Assembly (NCBI GenBank): GCA_028874915.1
Contig: JAPPHA010000122.1
Coordinates: 1-64,000, forward strand
DNA length: 64,000 nt
DNA from: Paracoccaceae bacterium
GTDB taxonomy: Bacteria > Pseudomonadota > Alphaproteobacteria > Rhodobacterales > Rhodobacteraceae
Reading direction: 5' to 3'
The position numbers were made by a program, and so were the translations under genes. A model generated the notes under the pieces. It did not search any database and was not told the origin of the DNA. It saw nothing but the letters and a program-made list of their open reading frames with translations. Positions 1 through 60,580 of the stretch are shown here, one piece after another; position 1 is the first letter of the stretch, and the number at the start of each line of letters is the position of its first letter.

Positions 1-136
1 TTGCCGCGTAGCTTGGCCGCGAAGCCGTCGTCTTCAGGCGACGGAGTGTTCACTCGGATACGTTACCTGTTGGTGGAACACCGGCATCCGGCGACTTTTT
101 CGCGCATTGGAGGCGCGAACGTTTAGGGGAAATGAT

Positions 137-907
137 ATGAAGATACTGGCTTCGAAGACTGCCCTCGTAACTGGCGCAAGCCGTGGCATCGGCGAAGCGA
201 CGGTGCGTGCGCTTGATGCAGCGGGCGCCAGGGTCGTCCTGACGGCGCAGACGGTGAAGGATCTCGAACGAGTCGCTGCCGATCTCCGCAATGACCCGCT
301 CGTCATTCCCCATGGCCTCGCCGAGACGGGTGCAGGGACGCACCTCGCCGAGACCGTCTTGTCCGAGACCGGCGGGGTGGATGTATTGGTCAACAATGCC
401 GGCTTCGCGATCAGAGGAAAGCCGGAAGAACTCACCGAGGCAGATCTGGACAGGATTTTCGCGGTCAATTTCCGCTCGCAACTCATGCTGACGATCGGGC
501 TTGGCCCGGCAATGATCGAACGAGGCGGAGGTTCGATCGTGAATGTTTCTTCCGTGGCCAGCCTGAGGGGACCCGTCAGGAGGATGGCTTATGCGGCCAC
601 CAAGGGCGCAATCGACGCGATGACGCGGGCGCTGGCTGCTGACTGGGGACCGAAGGGCATTCGGGTGAATGGCGTCAATCCGGGAATCGTAAAGACGGCG
701 ATGTTGGAATCGCGGCGGAAAGACATGACAGGTGTGGAGGATGCTTTGGCGGCGCGGGTCGCGCTCGGCCGGCTGGGACATCCGAAGAACGTTGCGGATG
801 TCATCGTGTTCCTGGCTTCGGACGCCGCGAGTTACATCAACGGCGAGTCCATAACGATTGACGGCGGCATGACCCGCGTGATGACGGAACTCAAGGGCAT
901 CAGGTAG
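137..907 (+). CDS. SDR family oxidoreductase
   Basis: Short-chain dehydrogenase/reductase of about 256 residues, a cytoplasmic NAD(P)-dependent oxidoreductase. The N-terminal cofactor motif TGASRGIG, the NNAG motif, the catalytic Ser of VSSVAS and the YAATKGA active-site Tyr/Lys are all present, as is the usual C-terminal stretch ending INGESITIDGG. I chose the ATG at 137 over an upstream in-frame start because AGGGGA lies just before it and the protein then begins with a typical SDR N-terminus. The substrate cannot be told from sequence; the end resembles FabG/glucose-dehydrogenase-like classical SDRs. It stands alone, convergent with the SulP/TRAP operon. Confidence 0.93.
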   Translation: MKILASKTALVTGASRGIGEATVRALDAAGARVVLTAQTVKDLERVAADLRNDPLVIPHGLAETGAGTHLAETVLSETGGVDVLVNNAGFAIRGKPEELTEADLDRIFAVNFRSQLMLTIGLGPAMIERGGGSIVNVSSVASLRGPVRRMAYAATKGAIDAMTRALAADWGPKGIRVNGVNPGIVKTAMLESRRKDMTGVEDALAARVALGRLGHPKNVADVIVFLASDAASYINGESITIDGGMTRVMTELKGIR

Positions 908-1167: not shown

Positions 1168-3366
1168 TCATGTCTTGACTGCGGTCGAGGCGCTGGCCGT
1201 CAGGATATACTCGTACAGGCTCAGGATAAGATCGGGTTCACTCTTCCCGAGGCGTTCCCGTGCATCTGGGGCCAGAAGGCGCGTTCGGCATTTTGCGTCG
1301 GCAATCGTGGCAGTCGCGGCGGCACCGGACTGAAAAGCGCCAAGAGGTTCGATCACGTCGCCGGGAGAGAACTGAAAAATCCGGGTGCCGGAAGGATCGA
1401 ATTGAGATGCCCGGCCTTCCGTCAACAGTTGGAGACCCTCGCGTGGCGCGTCGAGCGCGACAATCGCCTCGCCTGGCCGATAGGTCCGGGCTTCCGACCA
1501 CGTCCCGAGTTCGTCAACCAGTTTTTCGAACCATGCCTGTCGATCCAAATGGCGTTCAAGGTCATCCACGACGCTGTCCAATAGCCGGCGGCGCATGTCG
1601 TCCTCACGGCCAAGCTCGGACTTCCATTCGCCAAGGATAATGTCCTCGCATCGTTCAATGGCATGGTCTTCGTCGCTCTCTATCGCCAGTCTTTCGCCTA
1701 CCTTTGCCGGGAGTTCCGCCCGGAGCGTTGCCTCGAAACGGTCCGATGCCTTGAAAATGACGACTTTCACGCCTTCGGCGTCCGCAGACCGGATGAACCG
1801 GACGATCGCATTGACCGCAGAAAAATCGAATCCGGAGACATTCTCGAAACCCAGGAGAATGCAGTTCGGCGCAGGATCGATCTTCAGCGATTGCCGAAGC
1901 CGGTCCGCCAGCCTGTAGGCAATTCCAAAAAACAGGTAGCCGCGCAACTGGTAGGCTTGGGCACGGTGACCTTCGGCCAAAAGTATGGCACGGTCCGGCA
2001 CTGCGCGCGTCTTCCTGCTTTGCCTGTCGCGCAAGGTGAACCGGGATTCAACGGCATCCGTCCTGCCCAGGCTGATCACGAAAATCACTCCAGTGACCAG
2101 CATTCCGATTCCGATCCCTTCGAGGAACCCGAGGGTAACGATCGTCACGAATACGACTACGATAATCAGGTAGTCGCTGATCACGAGTTTCCGAAAGCTC
2201 CTGATCAGCCATTCGTCCAGCATTTGCAATCCCAGGAAAAAGAGGACGCCGCCAATCAACGGAACGGGAAAAAGGGTCAGGAGCACATCACCAACCAGCA
2301 GGACAGAACCAAGTGTGACGGCGGTTACGAGGCCCGTCAGTCGCGTCATGGCGCCGAACAGCGTGTTTCGAATGCTGGTAAGCGCGATCAGGCAACCCGG
2401 TGGCGCACCGCCAAATCCGGTTAGAACGTTGGCCCAGCCGGCAGACCGGAACTCCCTGTTCCAGTCAAGATCACAGTTTGCGGCGAGCTCGATTCCGACG
2501 AGATTCATGACCACGCAGATTAGAGTAACGGTCGCCAGAATCAGGAGGTTCGGTATTTGCCCCGCGACGCCTGACCAGTCGATATACGGAAGGTCCGAGA
2601 GACCAAACGGAGGCCACAGCCCGCCGTGGGCCGTGCCGGAAAACAGGAGACCGGCCTCCCGTGCCTCGTCTCCGGATATTCCCAGGACAGCCAGGCCGAC
2701 GTGGTAGGCGATGGCGGCGACAGCGAAAGTCGCCGGAAAGATGAGAAAGCCTTTCACGAGCTTTATCGTGACAAAGAGCCCAAGAGCAAAGCCGATCCCG
2801 ACGACGATCTGGGGCAAGGCACCTGGCTCGGGAATCGTCGGGAAGCCGGCCTGCGTCCATGAAATTCCCAAGAGATCAAGCGCGATGAGGCATGCCAGCC
2901 CCCCTGTTCCGGCGATGAATCCTCCCGAAACGGGGTAAGGAATGAAACGAAGGAAATTCGCCAGTCGGAAATGTCCGATCACGAGGAAGCACAGGCCCGT
3001 AGCCGCGGTGCCGATCAGTGCCACGGCTACGGCTGTCATGAAGAGCGGCATTCCTTCCAGGTCGATTGTGCCCGCGATGACCACGAGCATCATCACGGTT
3101 GGTGCCGGCGCACCCGCCATGGCGCCCGGGAGCCCGCTCGTCAGCGCGACCACGGCCCCGATGACGCAATAACTGAATAGAACGATTCCGGCGCCCACCG
3201 TGAAAAAAGGCGACAGGGGACCGGAAAAAATGGCTGCGGCCATGGATGTGCTGAAGACAAGGATAATTACCGCGGACATCGAGCCGCAAAACAGCGCCGG
3301 GATGACCTTGTTCGAATTCACGTCCTGGCCAAGTTCCCTGGCGAGCGAGATCAGTGTGGCAGGCAT
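1168..3366 (-). CDS. SulP-family anion transporter with STAS and cyclic-nucleotide-binding-like domains
   Basis: Inner-membrane SulP (SLC26-type) transporter, 732 residues. About ten to twelve hydrophobic segments fill residues 25-430, including the SulP-type stretches PYPVSGGFIAGTG and GGAPPGCLIALTSIRNT. A STAS domain follows (about 465-560, with LLGFENVSGFDFSAVNAI), then a region like a cyclic-nucleotide-binding/CAP_ED fold (about 615-725, with FSPGDVIEPLGAF). Such fusions probably transport sulfate, bicarbonate or a dicarboxylate under ligand control, but the substrate is unknown. Its ATG overlaps the stop of the TRAP permease gene by one base (TGATG) with a GGAG ribosome site inside that gene, so the two are translationally coupled. 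Confidence 0.9.
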   Translation of the reverse strand: MPATLISLARELGQDVNSNKVIPALFCGSMSAVIILVFSTSMAAAIFSGPLSPFFTVGAGIVLFSYCVIGAVVALTSGLPGAMAGAPAPTVMMLVVIAGTIDLEGMPLFMTAVAVALIGTAATGLCFLVIGHFRLANFLRFIPYPVSGGFIAGTGGLACLIALDLLGISWTQAGFPTIPEPGALPQIVVGIGFALGLFVTIKLVKGFLIFPATFAVAAIAYHVGLAVLGISGDEAREAGLLFSGTAHGGLWPPFGLSDLPYIDWSGVAGQIPNLLILATVTLICVVMNLVGIELAANCDLDWNREFRSAGWANVLTGFGGAPPGCLIALTSIRNTLFGAMTRLTGLVTAVTLGSVLLVGDVLLTLFPVPLIGGVLFFLGLQMLDEWLIRSFRKLVISDYLIIVVVFVTIVTLGFLEGIGIGMLVTGVIFVISLGRTDAVESRFTLRDRQSRKTRAVPDRAILLAEGHRAQAYQLRGYLFFGIAYRLADRLRQSLKIDPAPNCILLGFENVSGFDFSAVNAIVRFIRSADAEGVKVVIFKASDRFEATLRAELPAKVGERLAIESDEDHAIERCEDIILGEWKSELGREDDMRRRLLDSVVDDLERHLDRQAWFEKLVDELGTWSEARTYRPGEAIVALDAPREGLQLLTEGRASQFDPSGTRIFQFSPGDVIEPLGAFQSGAAATATIADAKCRTRLLAPDARERLGKSEPDLILSLYEYILTASASTAVKT

Positions 3367-5276
3367 CAGCTCCGGGCCTCCCGGTCAGGCCGTTTCGGCT
3401 TCGATCGCAGGAATGCCAACAAAGGATTCAGCAGCCCCACGGCGCAGAGACCCGCACCGGCGGCGGAAATCCCAAAGCTGTCGAGAGGTGGCACCGCAAG
3501 CAGGATGCCGCCGAGAACCAGGCAGGCTCTCGCAAACACCGTTGCGAAGGTAAGCCTTTGTTGACCCGTGAGCCCGAGGGAAACCGCAGCCAGGCCGGCA
3601 AATGTCAGCAAGGAGACGGCCAGGATCTCGAGCGCTTCCCCCCGCATCAGGAGCTGTGGTCGGAAGACAAAGGCAAAGGGCACCAGGTATTTCGGCATTC
3701 CGAGCGCCGCCGCAAGCCAGCCGGTAGTCCAGTAGTTGCTGTGCGCGATGGAAGCGGCGGCATAGGCGGCGAGAGCCACCGGCGGCGTGATCATGGCGGC
3801 GAGGGCCGCATAGAACACGAACAGGTGGGCATCCAGGAGCGCGACACCGAGCTCAACGATCGCGTGGCTGATCAACAATGCCACGAGCACGTATGCAAGG
3901 CTGGAAGGGATGCCCAGCCCGAGAACGATACACGCGAGAAACGAGCAGACGAGAAGCAGCGGGAGGTTACCGGACGACCATTCGATCATCAGCGCGGGGA
4001 GCTTGGTTCCAAGCCCGGTCAAGAGCACGGAACCGGCAATGATTCCGAGTGCGAGGCATGCGATGGCGACGTCGATCAACTCGCGCCCGCTGTCCAGAAG
4101 GGCATCCAGCAGCTTCCGTGGAGTCAGGCGGATGTTCCAGGGAAGGCTGACGGCGATGCAGGACGCCATGGCGATCATCACTGACGTCTGTAACGGGTGG
4201 CGGTTCGCGAGAAGGTAAACCAGGATTCCGAGCGCGCAGAAAAATGTGAGAATGCCTGGATGCAACAGGGCCTTCCCGACCGAAGGCCTGTCCTCGTCGG
4301 TCAGGGTAGGATCCCGTTCTTCAAGGACTTCGGTTCTGGTGATCCTCAGCCAGACCGCAAGGCCGAGTACCAGGAAATAAAGGAGCGCCGGGATGAGGGC
4401 GGCCACGATGATATCCGCATAGGCAACGTCAAGCAGGACGATCATGAAGAAAACCGCGAACCCCATGACCGGGGGCATGATCTGGCCTCCGCTCGAAGCA
4501 GCCGCCTCGATCGCGGCGGCGAGTTCCCGGCGAATTCCCGTGCGTCTCATGAGCGGAATGGTCATGTTTCCGGAAATGTAGACGTTGCCCATCGTGCTTC
4601 CCGAGACCGTGCCGACCATGGCGCTCGACAACACTGCCATGAGCGGAGGGCCGGTGCGCCCGCTGCCGAACAACGCGCGCGACAGCCCGATCACGAAATC
4701 CATCGCACCAACTTGCTGAAGGATTTTGCCGAGTATCAGGAACAGCGCCATGTACTTCAGGCATGCACTGAGCGCAAAACCCAGGATGCCGGAGTCGTTC
4801 AGGTACAGAAACGAGATAATCCGCTCGAGACTGAACCCCCGGTGTCCTCCGAGCCAAACGGGGAGATGTTGACCGAGAAAAAGGTATAGAAGGAATACGC
4901 CGGCTACGACAGCCAGTCCGTATCCAAGGCTGGACTTCACGGCAACCAGGATCAGGTAGATTCCGATGAATCCAATCGTGATGTCGGTCGAGTTGGGGAT
5001 TCCCTCGCGATAGGGAAGTTCCCGCGCATTCAGGATGATATAGCCGAAAACGATGATGCCTAGGAGCAGGTGCAGGCAGTCGAACGCCTTTCCGACTGCC
5101 GTCGGGGACCGGGTGGGAAAGAAGAATGCCGTAACCGCCAGGAGGGCGAGCACGGCGCGCTCGGGCAACGGCGCACCCGGATACCAATAGTTGTAGATGC
5201 CATAGAGCGGGACAGAGAGGAGTAGGGCTTGCCGTACCCACCTTTGCCCCTGTTCCATGCCAGGCCAGGGCTTCAC
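3366..5276 (-). CDS. TRAP transporter fused permease (4TM/12TM, TAXI type)
   Basis: Inner-membrane permease of 636 residues with about 16-18 hydrophobic segments, matching the fused small-plus-large permease of TAXI-type TRAP transporters, which use a sodium or proton gradient to import organic acids bound by a periplasmic protein. Recognisable family stretches are SSAMVGTVSGSTMGNVYISG, AAASSGGQIMPPVMG and the C-terminal ITPPVALAAYAA. It sits 22 bases after the TAXI binding-protein gene and before the SulP gene. The first start is GTG at 5276; an ATG at 5258 is an alternative and neither has a strong ribosome site. The substrate is unknown. Confidence 0.93.
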   Translation of the reverse strand: MKPWPGMEQGQRWVRQALLLSVPLYGIYNYWYPGAPLPERAVLALLAVTAFFFPTRSPTAVGKAFDCLHLLLGIIVFGYIILNARELPYREGIPNSTDITIGFIGIYLILVAVKSSLGYGLAVVAGVFLLYLFLGQHLPVWLGGHRGFSLERIISFLYLNDSGILGFALSACLKYMALFLILGKILQQVGAMDFVIGLSRALFGSGRTGPPLMAVLSSAMVGTVSGSTMGNVYISGNMTIPLMRRTGIRRELAAAIEAAASSGGQIMPPVMGFAVFFMIVLLDVAYADIIVAALIPALLYFLVLGLAVWLRITRTEVLEERDPTLTDEDRPSVGKALLHPGILTFFCALGILVYLLANRHPLQTSVMIAMASCIAVSLPWNIRLTPRKLLDALLDSGRELIDVAIACLALGIIAGSVLLTGLGTKLPALMIEWSSGNLPLLLVCSFLACIVLGLGIPSSLAYVLVALLISHAIVELGVALLDAHLFVFYAALAAMITPPVALAAYAAASIAHSNYWTTGWLAAALGMPKYLVPFAFVFRPQLLMRGEALEILAVSLLTFAGLAAVSLGLTGQQRLTFATVFARACLVLGGILLAVPPLDSFGISAAGAGLCAVGLLNPLLAFLRSKPKRPDREARS

Positions 5277-51504: not shown

Positions 51505-52284
51505 TCATGCGTAGCGGACACAGTGGATCGTGACTTGGGCCGGACGCCCGAGGATCACGGCGAATTCCCCCTCGCCTGTTGTTCGCTCTTCGCGGCGGTC
51601 CCGCAGGGCACCGTGAACCGCCGTTGTTGTGAAATGTCCCCCCGATACTGTAACGAAAGCAGTGCCTGCACGCCGGACGGTGCTGTTCAGATGCACATGT
51701 CCGCTCACCACGAGTGGGACATTTCCATGGGTCTTGATTGCCCTGAGAAACGGCCCTGCCTCCGCAAGACACGTCGCGTCGACCGTTAGCTCGAGAGGCA
51801 GCACCGTATGGTGCATTACCACGATCACTGGCCGGTCAGAAAACGTCCAGAGTTGTCGCCGAAACCAGTTCATCCGCTGCGGACATAGATGTCCGACATC
51901 GACACTATGGTCATCCGGTGAACGCCCGCCGCCGTTCGTGTCCAGCAGGATTACGCCGTAGTCGCCAATTCGGTCGGAAAACTGCGCGTAGCCGCCCGGC
52001 AGACAGTCGGCACCGAATACCTTGGCAATGCCCTGCCGGCAATCGTGATTGCCGAGGCCGAGCCAAAGGGGACAATGCAACCGATCCAGCGCGACTTTTG
52101 CGATCCGGTATCCATTCACGTTTCGGCGATGCGTGATATCGCCATTAACGATTACAAGATCGGCGTCGTCGTAGTCGGCATTGATTGCCTCCACCGCAGC
52201 GTCGAGGCGGTTTGACGAGTTGATCCCCAGGAATTCATCGCAATCGTGATGGATGTGCAGATCGCTTAAGACAACCAGTTTCAT
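51505..52284 (-). CDS. Calcineurin-like metallophosphoesterase
   Basis: Dimetal phosphoesterase of 259 residues (CpdA/YfcE-like class III branch). The five metal motifs are present: LSDLHIHHD at the start, VNGDIT, LGNHDC, MMHHTVLP-like VVMHHTVLP and SGHVHLN. No signal peptide. A much longer open frame reaches 53025 in the same frame, but its extra part lies inside the antiporter gene and is not protein-like; ATG 52284 with GAAGAAAG upstream is the real start. Last gene of the seven-gene cluster. Confidence 0.9.
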   Translation of the reverse strand: MKLVVLSDLHIHHDCDEFLGINSSNRLDAAVEAINADYDDADLVIVNGDITHRRNVNGYRIAKVALDRLHCPLWLGLGNHDCRQGIAKVFGADCLPGGYAQFSDRIGDYGVILLDTNGGGRSPDDHSVDVGHLCPQRMNWFRRQLWTFSDRPVIVVMHHTVLPLELTVDATCLAEAGPFLRAIKTHGNVPLVVSGHVHLNSTVRRAGTAFVTVSGGHFTTTAVHGALRDRREERTTGEGEFAVILGRPAQVTIHCVRYA

Positions 52285-52349
52285 GCTCAGTCTTTCTTCG
52301 AAGGCAGTCAGACAGGTCTTCTCGTCCCGCCGAGGCCAAGAGGCGGGGC

Positions 52350-53546
52350 TCATATGTTTTTCAGGGAGGTCAAGGATGCCATACCCTTGAGGAACACTTC
52401 CGTCATCATGGCGGTCACGATTGATGTCATAATGAGAACAATGAAGAAGTCCTGTCCGATCAGGCCTTCGGTGAAGAAAATACTTGCCAGGACAATCCCC
52501 GGACCACCGCGCGTGTTCATTGCCACGGCATAGCCAAAGGCAAGCCCCAAGTGCCTGAGCCGCTGCGCGATACAGGCAAAGACGCTCGCTATTTTGACAA
52601 CCGATGTAAACGTCAGGAATATGACAAACATAACCGGGTCGAATTGCAGATGCGTGGTCAGGGACAATCCGACCAAGACGAAATAGAGTGTGCCAATCTG
52701 TTTCGTGGCCTGTTCCAGGCCCTCCCGCTTTACAAGCCAGCTCCATCCCCGTTCGCCAAAATAGAGCCCTGCAAACATGCCGGTGAGCAGGGGACCAACA
52801 TCCAAAGTGATCCCGGCGAGAACCAAGAACCCGAAGCCGGGAAGAAGCCAAACCTCCTGTCCAGGCGGCCGCAATGCACGCACCCGGAACAGGCCGACAA
52901 ACAATAGAAGAAACCCTGCGATATGGGCGACGTGGCTCGCGATCTGTGGCACCCACCCTTCCGCTGCGGTGGCAAGTGCTATGAAGATCGAGGTGGCCAC
53001 GTAGACGATCAGGTCGCCGATACAACTTGCCAAGAGAATGTTCCGAGACAACCGCGTGTTGAGGAGATCGAGCGATTGAAAGATCTTCGTCAGAAACGGA
53101 AGCGATGTCACAAAGGTACAGAGCGACACGATCAGTGTCGCCTCGAGCGTGTTTCTTGCGCCGATGTCGAAGACTTCATGCGTTTGCGGAAACAGGGACA
53201 AGGTCGCAATCATCACGCATGATGCGGCAAAGGAGACCCCGGCACCCACCACAAGGCGGAACACAATGCCGATGTCCTGGCTCCGCATGTTCTCGAACGG
53301 AATACACGCGCCCGCCGTGGCCATCAGTACGACAAGCGTCGCGTCCCTGACGGGGTCAACGAGGGATTCCCCGAAGACAAGGGCTCTACCCGAACCCAGA
53401 GTGTAGAACCTCTGCAAGCCTTCAATGGCACCACCTACCAGATAGCCACAGACGATGGCTGTCACGATGACCTGCAGATTAAACCGCCGGTGTACGACTT
53501 CAACGCAGAGCAGCGCGACCAGCATGACAACGATAAAGGCAAACAT
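52350..53546 (-). CDS. Cation:proton antiporter (CPA2-type)
   Basis: Integral membrane protein of 398 residues with eleven to twelve hydrophobic segments and the Na/H-exchanger fold: IVCGYLVGGAIEG, the discontinuous-helix-like GILASCIGD equivalent (LLASCIGDLIVYVATS), GLSLTTHLQFDP and the C-terminal AMNTRGGPGIVLASIFF, which is typical of CPA2 exchangers. No RCK/TrkA domain. Sits between the IMPase and the phosphoesterase with gaps of 61 and 65 bases. Possibly drives export or maintains counter-ions; ion unknown. Confidence 0.88.
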   Translation of the reverse strand: MFAFIVVMLVALLCVEVVHRRFNLQVIVTAIVCGYLVGGAIEGLQRFYTLGSGRALVFGESLVDPVRDATLVVLMATAGACIPFENMRSQDIGIVFRLVVGAGVSFAASCVMIATLSLFPQTHEVFDIGARNTLEATLIVSLCTFVTSLPFLTKIFQSLDLLNTRLSRNILLASCIGDLIVYVATSIFIALATAAEGWVPQIASHVAHIAGFLLLFVGLFRVRALRPPGQEVWLLPGFGFLVLAGITLDVGPLLTGMFAGLYFGERGWSWLVKREGLEQATKQIGTLYFVLVGLSLTTHLQFDPVMFVIFLTFTSVVKIASVFACIAQRLRHLGLAFGYAVAMNTRGGPGIVLASIFFTEGLIGQDFFIVLIMTSIVTAMMTEVFLKGMASLTSLKNI

Positions 53547-53607
53547 TGTAATTTAGGTGCTGCCTTTCCATCGCTCCAGAACGACGCGGCCGTTGACCTG
53601 AAACGTG

Positions 53608-54429
53608 TCAATCAGCCAAAACGTCCGCAATCTCGGTGAGCAGTGTTTCGGCGTAGCAGGCAGCGCCGACGACAAACCGACGATCCTCGCCCTCCCTCGA
53701 GAACCGGGCAACCGTCCCGCCCAGCGCCGGGACCAAGGCACGGGCTGCCGACAGGTCCGTGAACTCTCCGTCGTACGAGACGATGCCACCGAATTTGCCG
53801 TTCAGAACCTTGATTGTCTCGATAACCGGCGACCAGGTGGCCATTAGCCGCTTTGCCCGGCTTTCGACCCTGTCGCGGACTCGGCGGGCCGTCGGATCGT
53901 CCCGAACGGCGTATCCCTGCGTCCAGCCGATCGTTGCCGAACTTAGCGGCCTGTAGGGCCGGAGCGGCGGCAGTTCGACGTCATCGAAGTGGATCGGACC
54001 GGCCTGCGTACCGTACACGATTTCGTCCTGGTGGGCGTCATGCAGGATCGCCGCCACCGGTTCGTCCTCAAAGCAAAGGGTTACTATGATGCCGTACAGC
54101 GGAATACCGGTGACATAGTTGTGGGTACCGTCGAGGGGGTCGACGATCCAACACCAGTCAGAGCTTTCGCCGGTCCGGCCAACCTCTTCGGAATGGATGT
54201 TATGCGTCGGATCAATGGCGGCGATGCCGTCAAGAATGATCTTCTCGCAGGCGAGATCGACATCGGTCACGATATCGCCATGGGCTTTGTCTGTCAGATC
54301 GAGATCTGACTTGAATCGCGTCCGGGCCAAGGCTCCAGCTTGTCGCACAGTGGCCAGAAGGCTTTCGATATATTTTTGTGCCTCGGCTTCGGGATACAGG
54401 AGATGGTTCGTGGCGGTCGTGTTGTTCAT
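53608..54429 (-). CDS. Inositol monophosphatase-family phosphatase
   Basis: Li-sensitive-type Mg phosphatase of 273 residues. Motifs: GDIVTDVDLACEK, HSEEVG (Glu), WIVDPLDGTHNYVTGIP (Asp pair) and the final Asp in EFTDLSAARALV, replacing the usual WDxAAG. The set could be IMPase, fructose-bisphosphatase-like or PAP/adenosine-bisphosphate phosphatase. ATG at 54429 gives four bases between the MFS stop and this start; a longer frame begins inside the MFS gene. Confidence 0.9.
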   Translation of the reverse strand: MNNTTATNHLLYPEAEAQKYIESLLATVRQAGALARTRFKSDLDLTDKAHGDIVTDVDLACEKIILDGIAAIDPTHNIHSEEVGRTGESSDWCWIVDPLDGTHNYVTGIPLYGIIVTLCFEDEPVAAILHDAHQDEIVYGTQAGPIHFDDVELPPLRPYRPLSSATIGWTQGYAVRDDPTARRVRDRVESRAKRLMATWSPVIETIKVLNGKFGGIVSYDGEFTDLSAARALVPALGGTVARFSREGEDRRFVVGAACYAETLLTEIADVLAD

Positions 54430-54433
54430 TGCG

Positions 54434-55684
54434 CTACTCTTCTTTGAATTCGCTCTCGACAATTGCTGCCCCATCAAAAGGGACGAGCTTCGTCCGATGG
54501 CGCCACATCACGAAGATGGCGACAGAAAGAATGACGACTGGGACATAAAAGAACGTGACCAGCGACGCCGCCATGAGCACCGCGCCAACAAAGGCCCCCA
54601 AGGCAATGCTGATATGCAGAACGGAATTACTGACTGTCAGCATCAGATCACTGATGTCCTTCGAAGTCTTGGCAATCAGGGCCTGCAGCGGCGGCGTACT
54701 CATCCACGAGACACCTCCCCAAATCATCATGGTTACAAGGACGCCCGGGAAGCTCGTGACTAGGAAGGGTGCCGCGGCAAGAATTGCTGCGTGCGCGACA
54801 AAAGCGAGCGTGATGGTCCGCAATTCTCCCAAACGATCCGAGACGAATCCGCCGACCTGTGCCCCGGCCATGCAGCAGCACCCGAACAATATCATCGCAA
54901 TCGTAAGTTCTGATGCCGTGTAGCCCAGGCTCCCGCGCAGGATGCTTGGCAAAAAACTGAACGGGATCGCATAGGCCAGCATCCAAAGCAGGATGCCGGC
55001 CTGACCGATGAAGTGATCCGCCTTGAGCGCACGGATAGCCGAAAACTGCATCGACTTAGGCGGCGTTCCAACCTGGGAAACGCCCGGCCAAACTGTCCAG
55101 ATCGCGAGTGCGCACAGAATCCCTCCGGCCCCGATCAACTGAAATGCCAGCTCCCAACCTCCGACGTCAGCAATCATGATGCTCAGCGGCACCCCGCAGA
55201 CGAGCGCACCGCCAAACCCGGCCGCGATATAGCCCAGCACGCCTCCGCTTTGCTCCGCCGACACGAGTTTGACAGCCACACTCATGGTCGTCCCTGCAAA
55301 GGCAGCCGAAGCAGCCGCTAGAACCATCCGCAGGATCGACATTGTGACCGCATCATCGGCCAGGGCTGAGGCAAGGCTCGACGCAGCGATCACCCCCATC
55401 AATAGCGTGAGCATGAAACGCGGTGACATCCAGCGCACACCGATCAGAACCACGGGACCCACGATTGCAAAAGCAACGGAATAAAGTGAGATGACGACAC
55501 TCAGCTCAGTCGGATGAATACCGAAGCTCGACGCGATGTTCGGCAAGATCCCGACGATTGACATTTCGGCCCAACCGACGATGAAGATTCCGACAAGCAG
55601 GATGTGAACGACAATGGGATAGACCCGCTGGGCGCGAAGTCCGGATGCGGTCGCGGGAAGGGGAGTTTGGCATACGCTCTTCAC
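54434..55684 (-). CDS. MFS transporter (DHA1-type efflux)
   Basis: Twelve-segment major-facilitator protein of 416 residues. Motif A-like FVSDRLGELRTITLAF between segments and the N-terminal LVGIFIVGWAEMSIVGILPNIASSFGI are typical of the AraJ/NepI sugar- or nucleoside-efflux branch of DHA1. Start is GTG at 55684, ten bases after the histidine-phosphatase stop. It is likely the exporter of whatever the cluster makes or modifies, or an importer of its substrate. Confidence 0.9.
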   Translation of the reverse strand: MKSVCQTPLPATASGLRAQRVYPIVVHILLVGIFIVGWAEMSIVGILPNIASSFGIHPTELSVVISLYSVAFAIVGPVVLIGVRWMSPRFMLTLLMGVIAASSLASALADDAVTMSILRMVLAAASAAFAGTTMSVAVKLVSAEQSGGVLGYIAAGFGGALVCGVPLSIMIADVGGWELAFQLIGAGGILCALAIWTVWPGVSQVGTPPKSMQFSAIRALKADHFIGQAGILLWMLAYAIPFSFLPSILRGSLGYTASELTIAMILFGCCCMAGAQVGGFVSDRLGELRTITLAFVAHAAILAAAPFLVTSFPGVLVTMMIWGGVSWMSTPPLQALIAKTSKDISDLMLTVSNSVLHISIALGAFVGAVLMAASLVTFFYVPVVILSVAIFVMWRHRTKLVPFDGAAIVESEFKEE

Positions 55685-55694
55685 TGTTTGTCTT

Positions 55695-56246
55695 TCAGTA
55701 AGTCAAAAGGTTCGGCGGGACATGCGTGTGGGTTCCTATCTCCCTAACGTCCCATGTCCCGTTCCATTGCAGGCTAGTAACGCTGCAATTGGCGACCTTG
55801 ATTTCCAGATCTGGTGCATTGAGGACCGTCCGTAGGAGACACTTTATGAAGCCGTTATGTGTCACGGCGACCACGCTCCACCCTGCTCCCAAGTACTTGT
55901 CCTCAAGCCACTTCATCGTGTCGTGGATTCCGCGCAAGTAGGTGAGATAGCGCTCCGTCAGCGGCCGGTTCGACCTCGTGCCATCCTCCGAGCCAATATG
56001 GAATTCGGCCTCGCGCAACGCTTCGCAAATTTCGACGGGCGACAACTCCGCACCACCCAAGTACTGTACCGTCTGGCACGCACGGCGCAGTGGGCTGCTC
56101 AGTACGACATCTCCTTTGATCTTTGCAGCCGGCAGGTATCGACACTGATTGTGTCCCAGTGGCGACAGTTCTGCATTGTTAGAGCGGTCTGTGCCTTTCT
56201 GCCAATGGGATTGACCGTGGCGGATCATGAATATTGTAGCCGCCAT
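55695..56246 (-). CDS. Histidine phosphatase family protein
   Basis: Branch-1 histidine phosphatase (phosphoglycerate-mutase-like) of 183 residues. The phospho-accepting His is in FMIRHGQSHWQKG, the second Arg in SSPLRRACQTVQYLG, and the late His in VVAVTHNGFIKCLL. No signal peptide, so acts in the cytoplasm on a soluble phosphomonoester. ATG at 56246 is preceded by GGAGGG. Co-transcribed with the MFS gene. Confidence 0.9.
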   Translation of the reverse strand: MAATIFMIRHGQSHWQKGTDRSNNAELSPLGHNQCRYLPAAKIKGDVVLSSPLRRACQTVQYLGGAELSPVEICEALREAEFHIGSEDGTRSNRPLTERYLTYLRGIHDTMKWLEDKYLGAGWSVVAVTHNGFIKCLLRTVLNAPDLEIKVANCSVTSLQWNGTWDVREIGTHTHVPPNLLTY

Positions 56247-56512
56247 GGTCTGAACCCTCCCCGGCCAACTCTCCGTCCGGGAGATTTGAACCGTAGGACA
56301 ATTGTGATGGGATCGTGACCCAGCCCGGGAAAGAACCATCGTTCGAACCTGCCAAGGTGCATCGCCGCGTCGTATGTCGACTCCGACGGAGCGCTGACCT
56401 GAGCGATCCGTTCCGGACCCGCCACCAATTTCGGGCGTTCGTAAGACCGGTAGGTCAACTTTCTCCGAGTTTCGCCGTCATGAAACTCCAGCAACTCGCT
56501 CACCCGATTCAT
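56225..56512 (-). CDS. Possible small protein, unknown
   Basis: A 95-codon frame with an ATG start overlapping the histidine-phosphatase start by 22 bases. It begins MNRVSELLEFHDGETRRKL and is fairly basic, with no recognised motif. The 354 bases between the CYTH-like gene and the phosphatase would otherwise be empty. Could be real and coupled, or a chance frame; the absence of a clear ribosome site argues for caution. Confidence 0.25.
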   Translation of the reverse strand: MNRVSELLEFHDGETRRKLTYRSYERPKLVAGPERIAQVSAPSESTYDAAMHLGRFERWFFPGLGHDPITIVLRFKSPGRRVGRGGFRPWRLQYS

Positions 56513-56600
56513 AGGAATGATTGCGCAATCCAGCCGACACCTGACGGAATTGCATACGGACGGAAAACTGGTTCGACCCTTGCTTTGGCTGCCAAGGTGA

Positions 56601-57419
56601 TCAACCTACCATGTCCAACACCGCGGCTGCCCGCTGGTACTTGATCATCTTGGTCACACGCGAACCAAAGCGCTCAACAAGGCTGTTCGTGAGGTAATCG
56701 ATCACCTCCACCACTCGGGGATCGCGTGCAACCTCGTCGGAGATCCGCGGGTAGATTGCAATCTCGACTTCGGCCACGGGAACGTATTCGGGATTGCCAA
56801 TTCCCTCGCGAAGGCTCCGTACCTGGGCACGGTCTATGCTGCAGCGCAGGCTATCCATCTCGTCGAGCCAGACGTAGAACGTGTAGCGCAAATCGTCGAG
56901 CAGCAGGGCGGGGTAGAGGCTCGTCGGGCAAATTCCCGTCTCCCTCTCAAGATGGTTCCCCGGATGGTCAATGTCGGTGCGGGCCATCAGCGAACGGACA
57001 ATGCTGACTGCCCTGTCGCCGGACGGGTCCCGCTGGATCGCGCGTTTTTCCTCGCCGTCGAAAACATGGCGGTTGTCGCGCCGCACACCGTATTTGTCCT
57101 CCTTGCCCTTGAAGGCACAGAAAGCGTGCGTGATCTTGTTGCACGATGTCCTGAGAAGGGCGCCGGTCGGCAGAATATCCAGACCCGCAGTATCATAGTA
57201 GATCGCGGTATTCAGCGGGGGGTTTTCGCGGGCATCGGATTTTTCCACGATTTGCGCACCGCGAACGCTATTGCCGACCGCCGCCTTTTCGTCATCGAGC
57301 CAAGAGTAGTAGGACGCATTGCTGACATGGTCCATTTCCACCTTTCGGGCGAGTTGAAAAAAGACCGTTCTATGCCCGGATTTTTCGTAGATCTTGCCCT
57401 CGGGCATTTTGGTAATCAC
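56601..57419 (-). CDS. CYTH-like (triphosphate tunnel) domain protein
   Basis: About 272 residues with features of the CYTH/VTC-type tunnel fold that hydrolyses or polymerises triphosphates: AIYYDTAGLDILPTGALLRT equals the N-terminal YFDT...L...LR strand pair, CAFKGKEDKYGVRRDNR resembles the KG...R.E strand, and VPVAEVEIAIYP the acidic EIE strand, with a Lys near the end in KMIKYQRA. No signal peptide. The frame opens at 57476 inside the cupin gene, but GTG 57419 has GGAG upstream and is preferred. Substrate could be a nucleoside triphosphate, polyphosphate or an unusual phosphorylated compound. The match is by pattern only. Confidence 0.6.
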   Translation of the reverse strand: MITKMPEGKIYEKSGHRTVFFQLARKVEMDHVSNASYYSWLDDEKAAVGNSVRGAQIVEKSDARENPPLNTAIYYDTAGLDILPTGALLRTSCNKITHAFCAFKGKEDKYGVRRDNRHVFDGEEKRAIQRDPSGDRAVSIVRSLMARTDIDHPGNHLERETGICPTSLYPALLLDDLRYTFYVWLDEMDSLRCSIDRAQVRSLREGIGNPEYVPVAEVEIAIYPRISDEVARDPRVVEVIDYLTNSLVERFGSRVTKMIKYQRAAAVLDMVG

Positions 57420-57438
57420 AATTTTTTCTCCGATCCTG

Positions 57439-58212
57439 TCAGGTGGTTTCTGGATATGTGCACGATGCATGCTCAAGAATGTGCGACCGCAGAAAACGCA
57501 GACGTTCCGAAAGGTTGTCTGGTGAAAAAAAAGAGTTTTGAACGCGCAGCTCAGTCTTGGGATAGACAGAGTTGTATACGGTCGAATGACTTCGCAGGCG
57601 CGGGCTCCGCAGGACTAACGTTGAGACCGTGTGTTGCTCTGGTAGACAGATGCGATGGATCGTGTCGAAGCTCAGATAGTAGGTCCGATCTTGGTCAGTC
57701 ATTTGATATTTGCATATTTTCAGTCGCACATCGCCCAGATGCTTGTAAAAATTGGCGATATCCTTGTTTTCGGGGCAATAGGAGTAGGCGCGATAGAGTC
57801 GCGCATTCGGACAGTCTTCTACCGTGCGTTCGAAGACCTCACTGCGCAACGCACCGCACAAGACTTTCGACCAGAAGCTGAAGCGGTGGTCATGGATCAA
57901 CTCATCCTGAATTTCGCCGACCGTATAGGGCGGGCGCCACAGGTGCAGAGTTAAACGTGCATGGTCCGGATTTCCATCATCGAACAGCACGATCTTGTCG
58001 AAATGATTTACATGCCGATAGGATCTCGAAGAAACGACTGCAAGTGACTCGTCATTCCCGACGATTTCCTCGATTAAACCGCAAAAATTTTCCTGGCTCC
58101 CGATTCGCTCGACAAAACCCGCATTCTCGTTTGAGTTCGTATCTGGAGCGAACTTCAGTTGGACGATTCCGGCTTCTATTTCTGCGAGAGGATTCTTGGT
58201 TTGAAATGACAT
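57439..58212 (-). CDS. Cupin-fold protein, possible thiol/non-haem iron dioxygenase
   Basis: A 257-residue protein with a cupin-like core: LTLHLWRPP, then IHDHRFSFWSKVLCGALRSEVFE, which fits the metal-binding HxH...G motif of cupins, and a late FDTIHRI...TVSTLVLRSP that could give the third His. The pattern is nearest to cysteine-dioxygenase-like and AurF-independent small oxygenases, but I cannot assign it. SD AGGAG stands before ATG 58212. It is the first gene of the cluster and, with the CYTH gene, has lower G+C than the backbone. Confidence 0.6.
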   Translation of the reverse strand: MSFQTKNPLAEIEAGIVQLKFAPDTNSNENAGFVERIGSQENFCGLIEEIVGNDESLAVVSSRSYRHVNHFDKIVLFDDGNPDHARLTLHLWRPPYTVGEIQDELIHDHRFSFWSKVLCGALRSEVFERTVEDCPNARLYRAYSYCPENKDIANFYKHLGDVRLKICKYQMTDQDRTYYLSFDTIHRICLPEQHTVSTLVLRSPRLRSHSTVYNSVYPKTELRVQNSFFSPDNLSERLRFLRSHILEHASCTYPETT

Positions 58213-58899
58213 TTTGAGACTCCTGAATTGTTTTGGGGTGATTCGTTAATGATCTCTCCGGCGATCACGCTCGATACCGGAAGTTCGATCGCCGGCGGCT
58301 CTTCGGAACTCTTTATTCGGTATGTGTATCGGGCATTCATAATCTCCGACTTTAACCGACACTTTTTTTGGAATCGCCAAAGCGGTGCGGTCATGACCGA
58401 GCAGAATTGGCGAACCCATTCGGCCTTAGCGAGGACTCGTTCCGACCCCGGTGGATACGAAACGACGAACAATCGAGTGTCCTCGAATCGTTTAGTGTTG
58501 GCGGTCGGGAAATCTCTCCGTTCTTTGTTTTTGTACATGGTTGCCCGTGATCACGGAGATTCCGAACGCTTCGAAGTGGTGCATCACGCTCTCCGAAAAC
58601 CCGTCCGACTGCGGTGTCCAAGCTGTCCGATTGGGTCACTGATTGGAATGTCAGGGATAACATGTCTTTCTACTGCAACCCGTCAACTTAAACTCTAAGG
58701 ATCTACGATTCCGCCAGAACAGCGTCGGGCAGTGAATCGTCTAACCTGTTCCCGAATGCCTGACGTAAGGTAGCGTTTCAGGCAAATTAGAAATCATAAC
58801 GATGCATTAGGAGGAATGTTTGCAACTTTCCCTAATAATCCGCGAAAGACATTGCATTGACAGTTGAGGAACGTCCATTCCAGTACCGTCCTGGGCGTG
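58213..58899. other. A+T-rich region without clear genes
   Basis: Upstream of the cupin gene. Frames on both strands (58228-58698 plus, 58176-58538 minus) overlap each other and carry no motif. A short palindrome GCCTGA...TCAGGC lies at about 58758-58783. The cluster promoter should be near 58213-58300. Probable junction with older sequence to the right. Confidence 0.45.
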
Positions 58900-59571
58900 G
58901 CTGTCCTCGGCAACGGTTGAAGACCGCGGCCGAGACGGTTTTCTTTGTGCGACCTCTCGTTAATGCACTGCTTTCGAGCAAAGTGCCGTGATATGGGGGG
59001 AGGTGCTGCAAGGGGTTCCGGGAAAGAGATGGTGGAACAAGTGATAGCAGTTGTTGCAGGGGAAGAGCAGCCACCTTAGCGCCAATGGCAGAACGGCGTT
59101 CCGAGCCGTGTGGAGGCTGTCGGTGCCGCTCCAAAGGCTTGCGCGATCGACGCAGTCGGGTGCAGTAGTTGATCGCCGGAAACAGCCAGAACCTTGGCAA
59201 GAGGAAAAGGATGGCCGCAGGCCCCGGATCCGCCACCGCCCAGCAGCAGACCGCGGACAGGATGGTTGGATTCAGCGCCGCGGTGATCTTTCCAAATGCT
59301 TCGTTGTTCGCGGGGTCACGCGAATGTAGCATGGGAACATTCGTGCACGATGTTGTTGAGGCCCCGCAGCCGGGTGGCGATGAATGCCGCAACAATTGCG
59401 GCGGCGGCGAAGCTTGCGCCGATCTCGGAGTTGGCAAACTGTGCCTAACGCCAACGTGAGGGTGACCAGTAGGAGGTAAGAGGCGAGGATCAACCCCGCC
59501 CTGGCACGGGAATGCCGGGGAAGCCCCCTGAAGCGGGGCAGGAATTTTCTTCTGATGGTTTTGCCGGACAT
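58900..59571 (-). pseudogene. Fatty acid desaturase, frameshifted and internally deleted
   Basis: Membrane di-iron desaturase read from three frames. ATG 59571 opens MSGKTIRRKFLPRF, the next frame gives SFAAAAIVAAFIATRLRG and the first His box in NNIVHECSHATF (59345-59331), a further frame gives RDPANNEAFGKITAALNPTIL and ILFLLPRFWLFPAINY, and the first frame returns with the third box HLFHHLFPG (59043-59029). At least three frameshifts are needed and the HHxxH middle box is missing, so the gene is dead. Divergent from the LysR gene. Confidence 0.85.
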
Positions 59572-59671: not shown

Positions 59672-60580
59672 ATGAAATACCTTTCCTACAAGCTTCTCGA
59701 CGCGCTGTCCGCCGTGGTCCGGAACGGTTCCTTCGCTGCTGCGGCCGAGCATCTGGGCGTTTCCCAGTCCGCGGTGTCTCAGCGGGTGAAACTGCTCGAG
59801 GAGCGTGCCGGAACTCCCCTCGTCCTGCGGGGGCGACCCTGCGGCGCCACGCAGGCCGGGGCGCTGCTCTGTCGGCATCTCGACGACGTCAGGCTGTTGG
59901 AGCACGATCTCCTCACAGATCTTCCGCATGTGGACGTGGCGGTGTCCGAGCGGCCGGTGACGGTACGTCTGGCCGTAAACTCGGACAGCCTCGCGAGCTG
60001 GTTTCCAGAGGTTGTGTGCCGAGCGGGCAGCGAACTGGGCCTGCGGCTGGCGATTGTGCGCGACGACCAGGAGCACACGGTCGAGATGCTCAGGTCCGGA
60101 GAGGCCATGGCTGCAGTGACCACGGAGGGCGCACGCATCAACGGATTCCGCAAGACCACTCTCGGTACGCTCGACTTCCTTGCTGTCTGCGCGCCGCAGT
60201 TTTATTCCGAGCATTTTGTGGTTGGCGTAACGTCGGAGGCATTGTCGCGGGCGCCCTGCCTCGTGTTCGACAGCAAGGACCGCCTGCTGCATGGTTGGGC
60301 GCGTGCTCTGCTCGGCCGGCAGGTCCAGTTGCCGGGTCACTGGCTTCCGGACTTGCACGGCCAGATCCGCGCTCTCACCGCAGGCGGTGGATGGGGGATG
60401 ATGCCGAAGCATCTCATCTCCGGGGAGCTGGATGCCGGGAGGCTGCGTGAACTGGTGCAGGGAAGGCCGTTTCCTGTCCCGCTCTACTGGCAGTACAGCA
60501 CCAATTCGGGAAGGGTTCTGCGGGATCTTGCGGGAATCGTGAGGCGCACGGCGCACGACATGCTCCAGACAACCGAATAG
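59672..60580 (+). CDS. LysR-family regulator, ArgP/IciA-like
   Basis: Transcription factor of 302 residues. The winged HTH LLDALSAVVRNGSFAAAAEHLGVSQSAVSQRVKLLEER-type N-terminus (residues 5-45) and a LysR effector domain follow. The stretch MKYLSYKLLDALSAV and VRLAVNSDSLASWFPEV are typical of ArgP, which senses lysine or arginine and normally faces an exporter gene argO/lysE. Here the divergent gene is instead a broken desaturase, so its target is open. ATG 59672; the longer frame from 59555 is rejected. Confidence 0.92.
   Translation: MKYLSYKLLDALSAVVRNGSFAAAAEHLGVSQSAVSQRVKLLEERAGTPLVLRGRPCGATQAGALLCRHLDDVRLLEHDLLTDLPHVDVAVSERPVTVRLAVNSDSLASWFPEVVCRAGSELGLRLAIVRDDQEHTVEMLRSGEAMAAVTTEGARINGFRKTTLGTLDFLAVCAPQFYSEHFVVGVTSEALSRAPCLVFDSKDRLLHGWARALLGRQVQLPGHWLPDLHGQIRALTAGGGWGMMPKHLISGELDAGRLRELVQGRPFPVPLYWQYSTNSGRVLRDLAGIVRRTAHDMLQTTE

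Follow-up and report, generated by a model that had tools for sequence, protein, structure and literature searches.

A compact proteobacterial gene cluster related to the nucleocidin fluorination genes, and its candidate role in making a C4'-modified adenine nucleoside

Few natural products contain fluorine, and how nucleocidin comes to be fluorinated is a long-standing question. We analysed a stretch of 64,000 nucleotides from a Paracoccaceae bacterium (contig JAPPHA010000122.1, hereafter the window), in which seven consecutive open reading frames, ORF1 to ORF7, form a cluster on the minus strand. Judged by sequence, ORF1, ORF2 and ORF3 are securely homologous to the three genes that Streptomyces needs for the 4'-fluorination of nucleocidin. 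The cluster is most likely a compact, horizontally acquired operon for the synthesis and export of an adenine nucleoside that is fluorinated, or modified in another way, at C4'; that this particular copy forms a carbon-fluorine (C-F) bond seems to us probable. A preliminary description of the window recognised no described pathway in this combination of families; the first three members have however been described, as orf(-3), orf2 and orf3 of the nucleocidin cluster (PMC10946740).

Homology to the nucleocidin fluorination trio

Deletions in S. calvus and S. virens established that orf(-3), orf2 and orf3 are needed for the 4'-fluorination of adenosine and not for sulfamylation; the deletions were complemented, and de-fluoro products persisted in the mutants (PMC10946740). 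The orf(-3) product has a cysteine-dioxygenase fold with Tyr73, Trp100, His115, His117 and His200, the orf2 product a triphosphate-tunnel fold, and orf3 encodes a histidine phosphatase; orf2 was complemented only with orf3 alongside, which the authors ascribed to genetic linkage or functional co-dependence (PMC10946740). ORF1 is 43% identical to Orf(-3) of S. calvus, ORF2 61-62% to Orf2, and ORF3, the next gene after ORF2, about 34% to Orf3. The S. calvus reading frame used here (L007:5025-5828) is indeed Orf(-3), since the five named residues sit exactly at their published positions. The contig that carries it (L007/L048) also encodes a radical SAM protein, sulfotransferases, a rubrerythrin, a gyrase-like protein, APRT and PNP; the presence of sulfamylation genes identifies it as the nucleocidin cluster.

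When the proteins of the nucleocidin, S. cinnamoneus and Hahella clusters were compared with the whole window by tblastn, the matches were the trio and the antiporter ORF6, besides a generic SDR at 152-691. ORF6 matches by BLAST the antiporters of four Streptomyces and Kitasatospora loci (L005-L008) with E values of 1e-21 to 1e-11, and these antiporters adjoin orf2 homologues. None of the sulfamylation genes (radical SAM, sulfotransferases, rubrerythrin, amidinotransferase and others) was found in the window by tblastn, so that the cluster is not a nucleocidin cluster but a compact version, from a different phylum, that has the fluorination trio as its common basis.

A distant ORF1 paralogue also stands elsewhere in S. 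calvus (L043:8896-9618, G423:C2), beside a Nudix gene and with no ORF2 nearby.

Folds and active sites

ORF1 and ORF2 match no family above cut-off in Pfam or NCBIfam. The labels "cupin" and "CYTH-like" that the preliminary description gave them are nevertheless correct, because their AlphaFold models match the thiol-dioxygenase and tunnel folds respectively. For ORF1 (pLDDT, the predicted local distance difference test score, 90), the best match in the PDB is cysteine dioxygenase 4qm9 (Z 12.4, root-mean-square deviation 2.8, 149 residues), and mercaptosuccinate dioxygenase gives Z 12.1; model and alignment predict the cupin fold and three-histidine metal site of cysteine/thiol dioxygenases. 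Its Tyr65, Trp92, His107, His109 and His186 are the five residues named for Orf(-3), and they are invariant in ten relatives. The same invariance, again in ten relatives, holds for the Arg/His/Arg/Glu/His positions of ORF3.

The ORF2 model (pLDDT 88) aligns with YgiF (5a60: Z 16.8, root-mean-square deviation 3.0, 194 residues), which places it in the tunnel fold, and also with BH2851 (Z 16.4), ThTPase (Z 13) and VTC4 (Z 12.3). The hydrolytic and cyclase enzymes of this fold carry an N-terminal ExExK motif, whose ExE pair binds metal. ORF2 lacks the motif: the strand expected to bear it appears to read QxAxK (residues 41-45), in all nine relatives, a register that derives from the structural alignment (37..291 to 0..203 of YgiF) and not from a sequence profile. 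The basic residues and the second acidic pair are retained in the relatives. The profile of ORF2 compared with those of true CYTH proteins gives no significant match, so the link to CYTH rests on structure. No CYTH gene is detectable by Pfam in the host genome.

Distribution of the trio

A scan with the single ORF2 sequence detected no relatives, and none was present in 60 related genomes; a profile scan did find them, at 47-61% identity, in Kitasatospora griseola, Streptomyces cinnamoneus, S. calvus, Streptomyces sp. WM4235 and a Streptomyces metagenome-assembled genome (MAG), as well as in Erwinia piriflorinigrans, Pantoea rodasii, Pantoea sp. Nvir, Hahella sp. and Candidatus Pantoea carbekii. 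ORF2 also occurs on plasmids of Pantoea alfalfae and Erwiniaceae PD-1. It is rare in each group sampled: three of 393 Streptomyces genomes, four of 178 in the family of Pantoea, one of 396 in the phylum of Kitasatospora, one of 369 in the class of Hahella, and one of 385 in the class of the host, this one being the host itself. Among the genomes of the host's family, ORF1 was found in one of 184.

In all the genomes found with ORF2 (13/13), ORF1 and an ORF3-type phosphatase lie beside it on the same contig, and the grouping therefore exceeds chance. ORF1 and ORF2, which the preliminary description had put forward as baits for a neighbourhood search, were the right choice. Out of 72,556 plasmid records, ORF3 matches three and no more, the same three in which ORF1 and ORF2 occur, and no match to the cluster was found in phages and viral contigs. 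The trees of ORF1, ORF2 and ORF3 are concordant, placing the window beside Streptomyces, then Hahella, then Erwiniaceae (in the ORF1 tree the placement of the window is weakly supported); this agreement suggests that the three genes travel as a unit. Within Erwiniaceae the trio displays a ratio of nonsynonymous to synonymous polymorphism (pN/pS) of about 0.07-0.5 with synonymous sites near saturation, which indicates purifying selection, symbiont-like lineages included.

The smallest form is a plasmid-like contig of 6.9 kb (L027, G832:C7; 6905 bases, 22.5% G+C) from a strongly reduced, AT-rich Erwiniaceae genome of 1.1 Mb. It carries ORF1, ORF2, an NDK-like gene, ORF3 (trio region 1276-4111) and a replication protein, all open, together with a CopA-like antisense RNA. 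The size and composition of the genome, together with its closest relatives, suggest that the contig comes from an insect symbiont. On plasmid pBMSBPS4 of Ca. Pantoea carbekii the ORF2 homologue is broken into two frames (L014:3719-4545), ORF1 and the phosphatase being still open.

Comparison with related clusters

With the nucleocidin cluster of S. calvus and S. virens the window shares the cupin and its active-site residues, the tunnel protein, the histidine phosphatase and a related antiporter, ORF2 and ORF3 being neighbours in both. By contrast, the window trio is contiguous on one strand; it is accompanied by an inositol-monophosphatase-family enzyme (IMPase), a SpdA-like phosphoesterase and an unrelated MFS protein, and genes for sulfamylation, glucosylation, PNP, APRT and PenA/B/C-like proteins are missing. 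The clusters of K. griseola (L005), S. cinnamoneus (L006) and WM4235 (L008), for which we found no published description, also combine the trio with the antiporter and an MFS gene; they differ from the window in carrying PenA/B/C-like, Nudix, HAD, PNP and DUF190 genes. With their coformycin/pentostatin-like genes and no sulfamylation genes, they suggest undescribed fluoro-nucleosides made together with an adenosine deaminase inhibitor. Pantoea/Erwinia, Hahella and L027, likewise without a published description that we could find, keep ORF1 and ORF2 adjacent and ORF3 close, and Hahella also has a metallophosphoesterase; NDK-like and TauE/TSUP genes replace there the IMPase and antiporter of the window. 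Between ORF4 and the MFS genes in other trio clusters, no similarity could be detected. The preliminary description had envisaged that the seven families might recur together in other genomes: this stands for ORF1-3 and, in Streptomyces, for the antiporter, and fails for the IMPase, this MFS and the calcineurin-like enzyme, which have been added locally and to which nothing specific corresponds in the other clusters.

Adenine-handling PNP, APRT and PenA/B/C-like genes occur in the Streptomyces trio clusters, where the HisG-, SDR- and SAICAR-synthetase-like genes are of the type of pentostatin/ara-A and related (pen, ade, cof) clusters. A pentostatin/ara-A identity was rejected for the window, from which the PenA/B/C-like genes are absent; the sole SAICAR-synthetase match of the host genome is 31% identical to the PenC-like query, and the characterised PenF, described as a 5'-nucleotidase of another family, also weighs against it. 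The published descriptions of known Pantoea antibiotic clusters that we consulted pointed to no match for the Pantoea trio cluster. Fluorinase FlA of S. cattleya, which depends on S-adenosylmethionine, would likewise join fluorine to carbon in an adenosine unit, by an unrelated fold and chemistry; nucleocidin producers are without it, and Pfam and NCBIfam place none of the seven proteins in its family.

Several trio clusters have neighbours that point to fluoride. The ORF3 homologue of S. cinnamoneus overlaps at its end with a DUF190 gene (11575 vs 11578), and in WM4235 one DUF190 match begins at the end of the ORF2 homologue, another lying beside the phosphatase. The plasmid relatives of this DUF190 stand between two crcB fluoride-channel genes in three cases out of three, one set being followed by a TSUP transporter. 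The Pantoea and Hahella clusters contain a TauE/TSUP-type gene; TSUP is a weak lead to fluoride, because BLAST shows no relationship between these proteins and the TSUP of the crcB operon, which have no more than a family name in common. Na+/H+ antiporters, the family to which ORF6 belongs, rank second in frequency among the classes found under fluoride riboswitches (PMC11139923).

Some neighbours of the relatives are given for record. In Pantoea sp. Nvir, IMPase, Nudix, DegT-type aminotransferase and Gfo/Idh oxidoreductase genes lie beside the trio on the opposite strand (L012:3306-6766) and, their families being judged from sequence, look like an amino-sugar pathway. The Streptomyces MAG has a second, divergent ORF2-like gene beside an MFS gene, a leucine-rich-repeat protein and an APRT-like gene (L028:5248-9063, G425:C151). 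In S. cinnamoneus (L006:12541-13410) and in Hahella (L013:15454-16371) too, a leucine-rich-repeat gene comes after the trio.

Proposed pathway and alternative readings

In the pathway that we propose, a cellular adenine nucleotide would be the substrate, in which case scaffold-building enzymes are not needed. ORF1, as a three-histidine iron cupin, would activate the ribose C4' with oxygen, and fluoride would be captured there; we assign this step to the cupin because it is the sole obvious candidate for an oxygen-dependent reaction. ORF2 would bind and process the 5'-(tri)phosphate jointly with the ORF3 phosphatase: a triphosphate-binding fold next to a phosphatase suggests a modification at the phosphorylated stage. 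A glucosylated 4',5'-didehydro compound was ruled out as precursor in the same producers. ORF5 and ORF7 might then complete the dephosphorylation, ORF4 export the nucleoside, and ORF6 guard the pH and ion balance under fluoride.

A number of observations weigh against fluorination as the outcome here. Even in Streptomyces, the knockout study established the need for the three genes without assigning a reaction to any of them (PMC10946740). The evidence of this study consists of gene content, homology, folds, residue conservation, linkage across phyla and selection in relatives, from which we infer fluorination in this organism. ORF3 is a low-identity homologue of Orf3, the transcript may be split by the 354-base gap between ORF2 and ORF3, no fluoride riboswitch reaches the gathering score near the cluster, and crcB and DUF190 have no match in the window with Streptomyces queries. 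The supply of fluoride to Pantoea and to insect symbionts is moreover doubtful. As for the details of the pathway, the adenine-nucleotide substrate, the division of labour, the order of steps and the roles of ORF4 to ORF7 are what we infer, those of ORF4, ORF5 and ORF7 from their families; for ORF4 the export role is derived in this way because it does not resemble the MFS genes of the other clusters.

The same enzymes could oxidise an adenine nucleotide, at C4' or elsewhere, and end in a hydroxyl, another halide or an elimination, an outcome that we regard as rather unlikely. It would fit the unproven role of each Orf in fluorination, the low fluoride of most habitats in which the other carriers live, an identity of just 43% between ORF1 and Orf(-3), and the lack of a crcB match in the window; on the other hand all five named active-site residues are retained, and fluoride-linked families (DUF190, TSUP, antiporter) are repeatedly found next to the trio. 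The preliminary description was right to see a genuine functional cluster that handles phosphorylated small molecules and includes export, and it had a nucleoside among its options; the scheme it suggested was salvage or detoxification in which a polyphosphorylated compound, such as an inositol phosphate or a nucleotide, loses its phosphates one after another, or else the export of a precursor in phosphorylated form with activation afterwards. Four hydrolase- or phosphatase-type families and two transporters in succession do call such a scheme to mind, but it is not the best reading, since the trio is described as required for 4'-fluorination: the conserved core is a cupin with a tunnel protein and a phosphatase rather than the whole set of phosphatases, the metal-binding ExE pair that hydrolytic tunnel enzymes possess is missing from ORF2, and the described pathway with the same core yields a fluoronucleoside. 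We hold it to be improbable.

It is more improbable still that the trio works in reverse, degrading or detoxifying fluorinated or other modified nucleosides of the environment. An engineered cysteine dioxygenase is able to cleave C-F bonds, and fluoride-linked neighbours would suit a release of fluoride too; in Streptomyces however the three Orf proteins are needed to form the C-F bond, not to remove it, and dedicated exporters indicate a product. There is equally little chance that the cluster was recently acquired and is silent or decaying in its host, with no product. Its host is the sole carrier in its class and family, the 354-base gap interrupts the cluster, and the G+C content of ORF1 is 49.6% against 59% for the window; yet all seven frames are open with their family motifs intact, and in codon usage ORF2 to ORF7 differ little from the flanking genes.

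As three of the seven genes are related to nucleocidin fluorination genes, a bacterium far from Streptomyces, together with some insect-dwelling relatives, may carry a small kit for fluorinated nucleosides, a chemistry that is among the rarest in living organisms. We would go further only tentatively, the odds being somewhat against it: the trio could be a portable second C-F-forming machinery, based on an iron cupin that acts on a nucleotide, and working outside Actinomycetota in this proteobacterium, Pantoea/Erwinia, Hahella and L027, with a 4'-fluoronucleoside as weapon or host protectant. ORF1, ORF2 and ORF3 are what remains constant across distant lineages, down to the four-gene set of the 6.9 kb contig. 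The trio clusters supply diverse versions of each enzyme for assay, so that the question of the 4'-C-F bond becomes amenable to direct reconstitution; Proteobacteria and insect symbionts would be predicted organofluorine producers, and the trio would serve as a genome-mining signature for fluorometabolites.

Layout of the cluster and neighbouring sequences

The order and single strand of the seven frames, as first described, are confirmed (Table 1), and so are the families of ORF3 to ORF7, which Pfam supports. Recomputed, the gaps from ORF2-ORF3 to ORF6-ORF7 are 354, 10, 4, 61 and 65 bases, identical to those first reported. The likeliest start of ORF2 is the GTG at 57419, which is preceded by a purine-rich site and lies 19 bases past ORF1; the annotated start, TTG 57476, gives a longer frame that overlaps ORF1. 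ORF7 scores 138 bits against the SpdA model, whose cut-off is 400.

Table 1. Genes of the cluster, with positions in the window
Gene	Assignment	Position	Strand	Basis
ORF1	Cupin, cysteine/thiol dioxygenase fold, three-histidine; Orf(-3) homologue	57439..58212	-	Fold model and identity
ORF2	Altered triphosphate-tunnel (CYTH/TTM) protein; Orf2 homologue	56601..57419	-	Fold model and identity
ORF3	Histidine phosphatase; Orf3 homologue	55695..56246	-	Pfam His_Phos_1, E 4.9e-22
ORF4	MFS (DHA1-like) exporter	54434..55684	-	Pfam MFS_1, E 7.5e-31; NCBIfam Cmx/CmrA and AraJ-like
ORF5	Inositol-monophosphatase-family phosphatase	53608..54429	-	Inositol_P, E 2.8e-33; HisN-like below cut-off
ORF6	Cation/proton antiporter	52350..53546	-	Na_H_Exchanger, E 3.9e-14
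ORF7	Calcineurin-like phosphoesterase, near SpdA/CpdA cyclic-nucleotide phosphodiesterases	51505..52284	-	Metallophos, E 1.8e-15

Promoter-like sites are no more frequent than in shuffled sequences. The ORF2-ORF3 gap (56247-56600) contains an open frame of 95 codons on the minus strand (56225-56512) that belongs to no known family, possibly the remnant of a lost gene. Upstream of ORF1, positions 58213-59550 hold no clear gene, with a low G+C content near 58-59 kb; this gene-poor stretch is adjoined by an ArgP/LysG-type LysR regulator on the plus strand (about 59678-60580).

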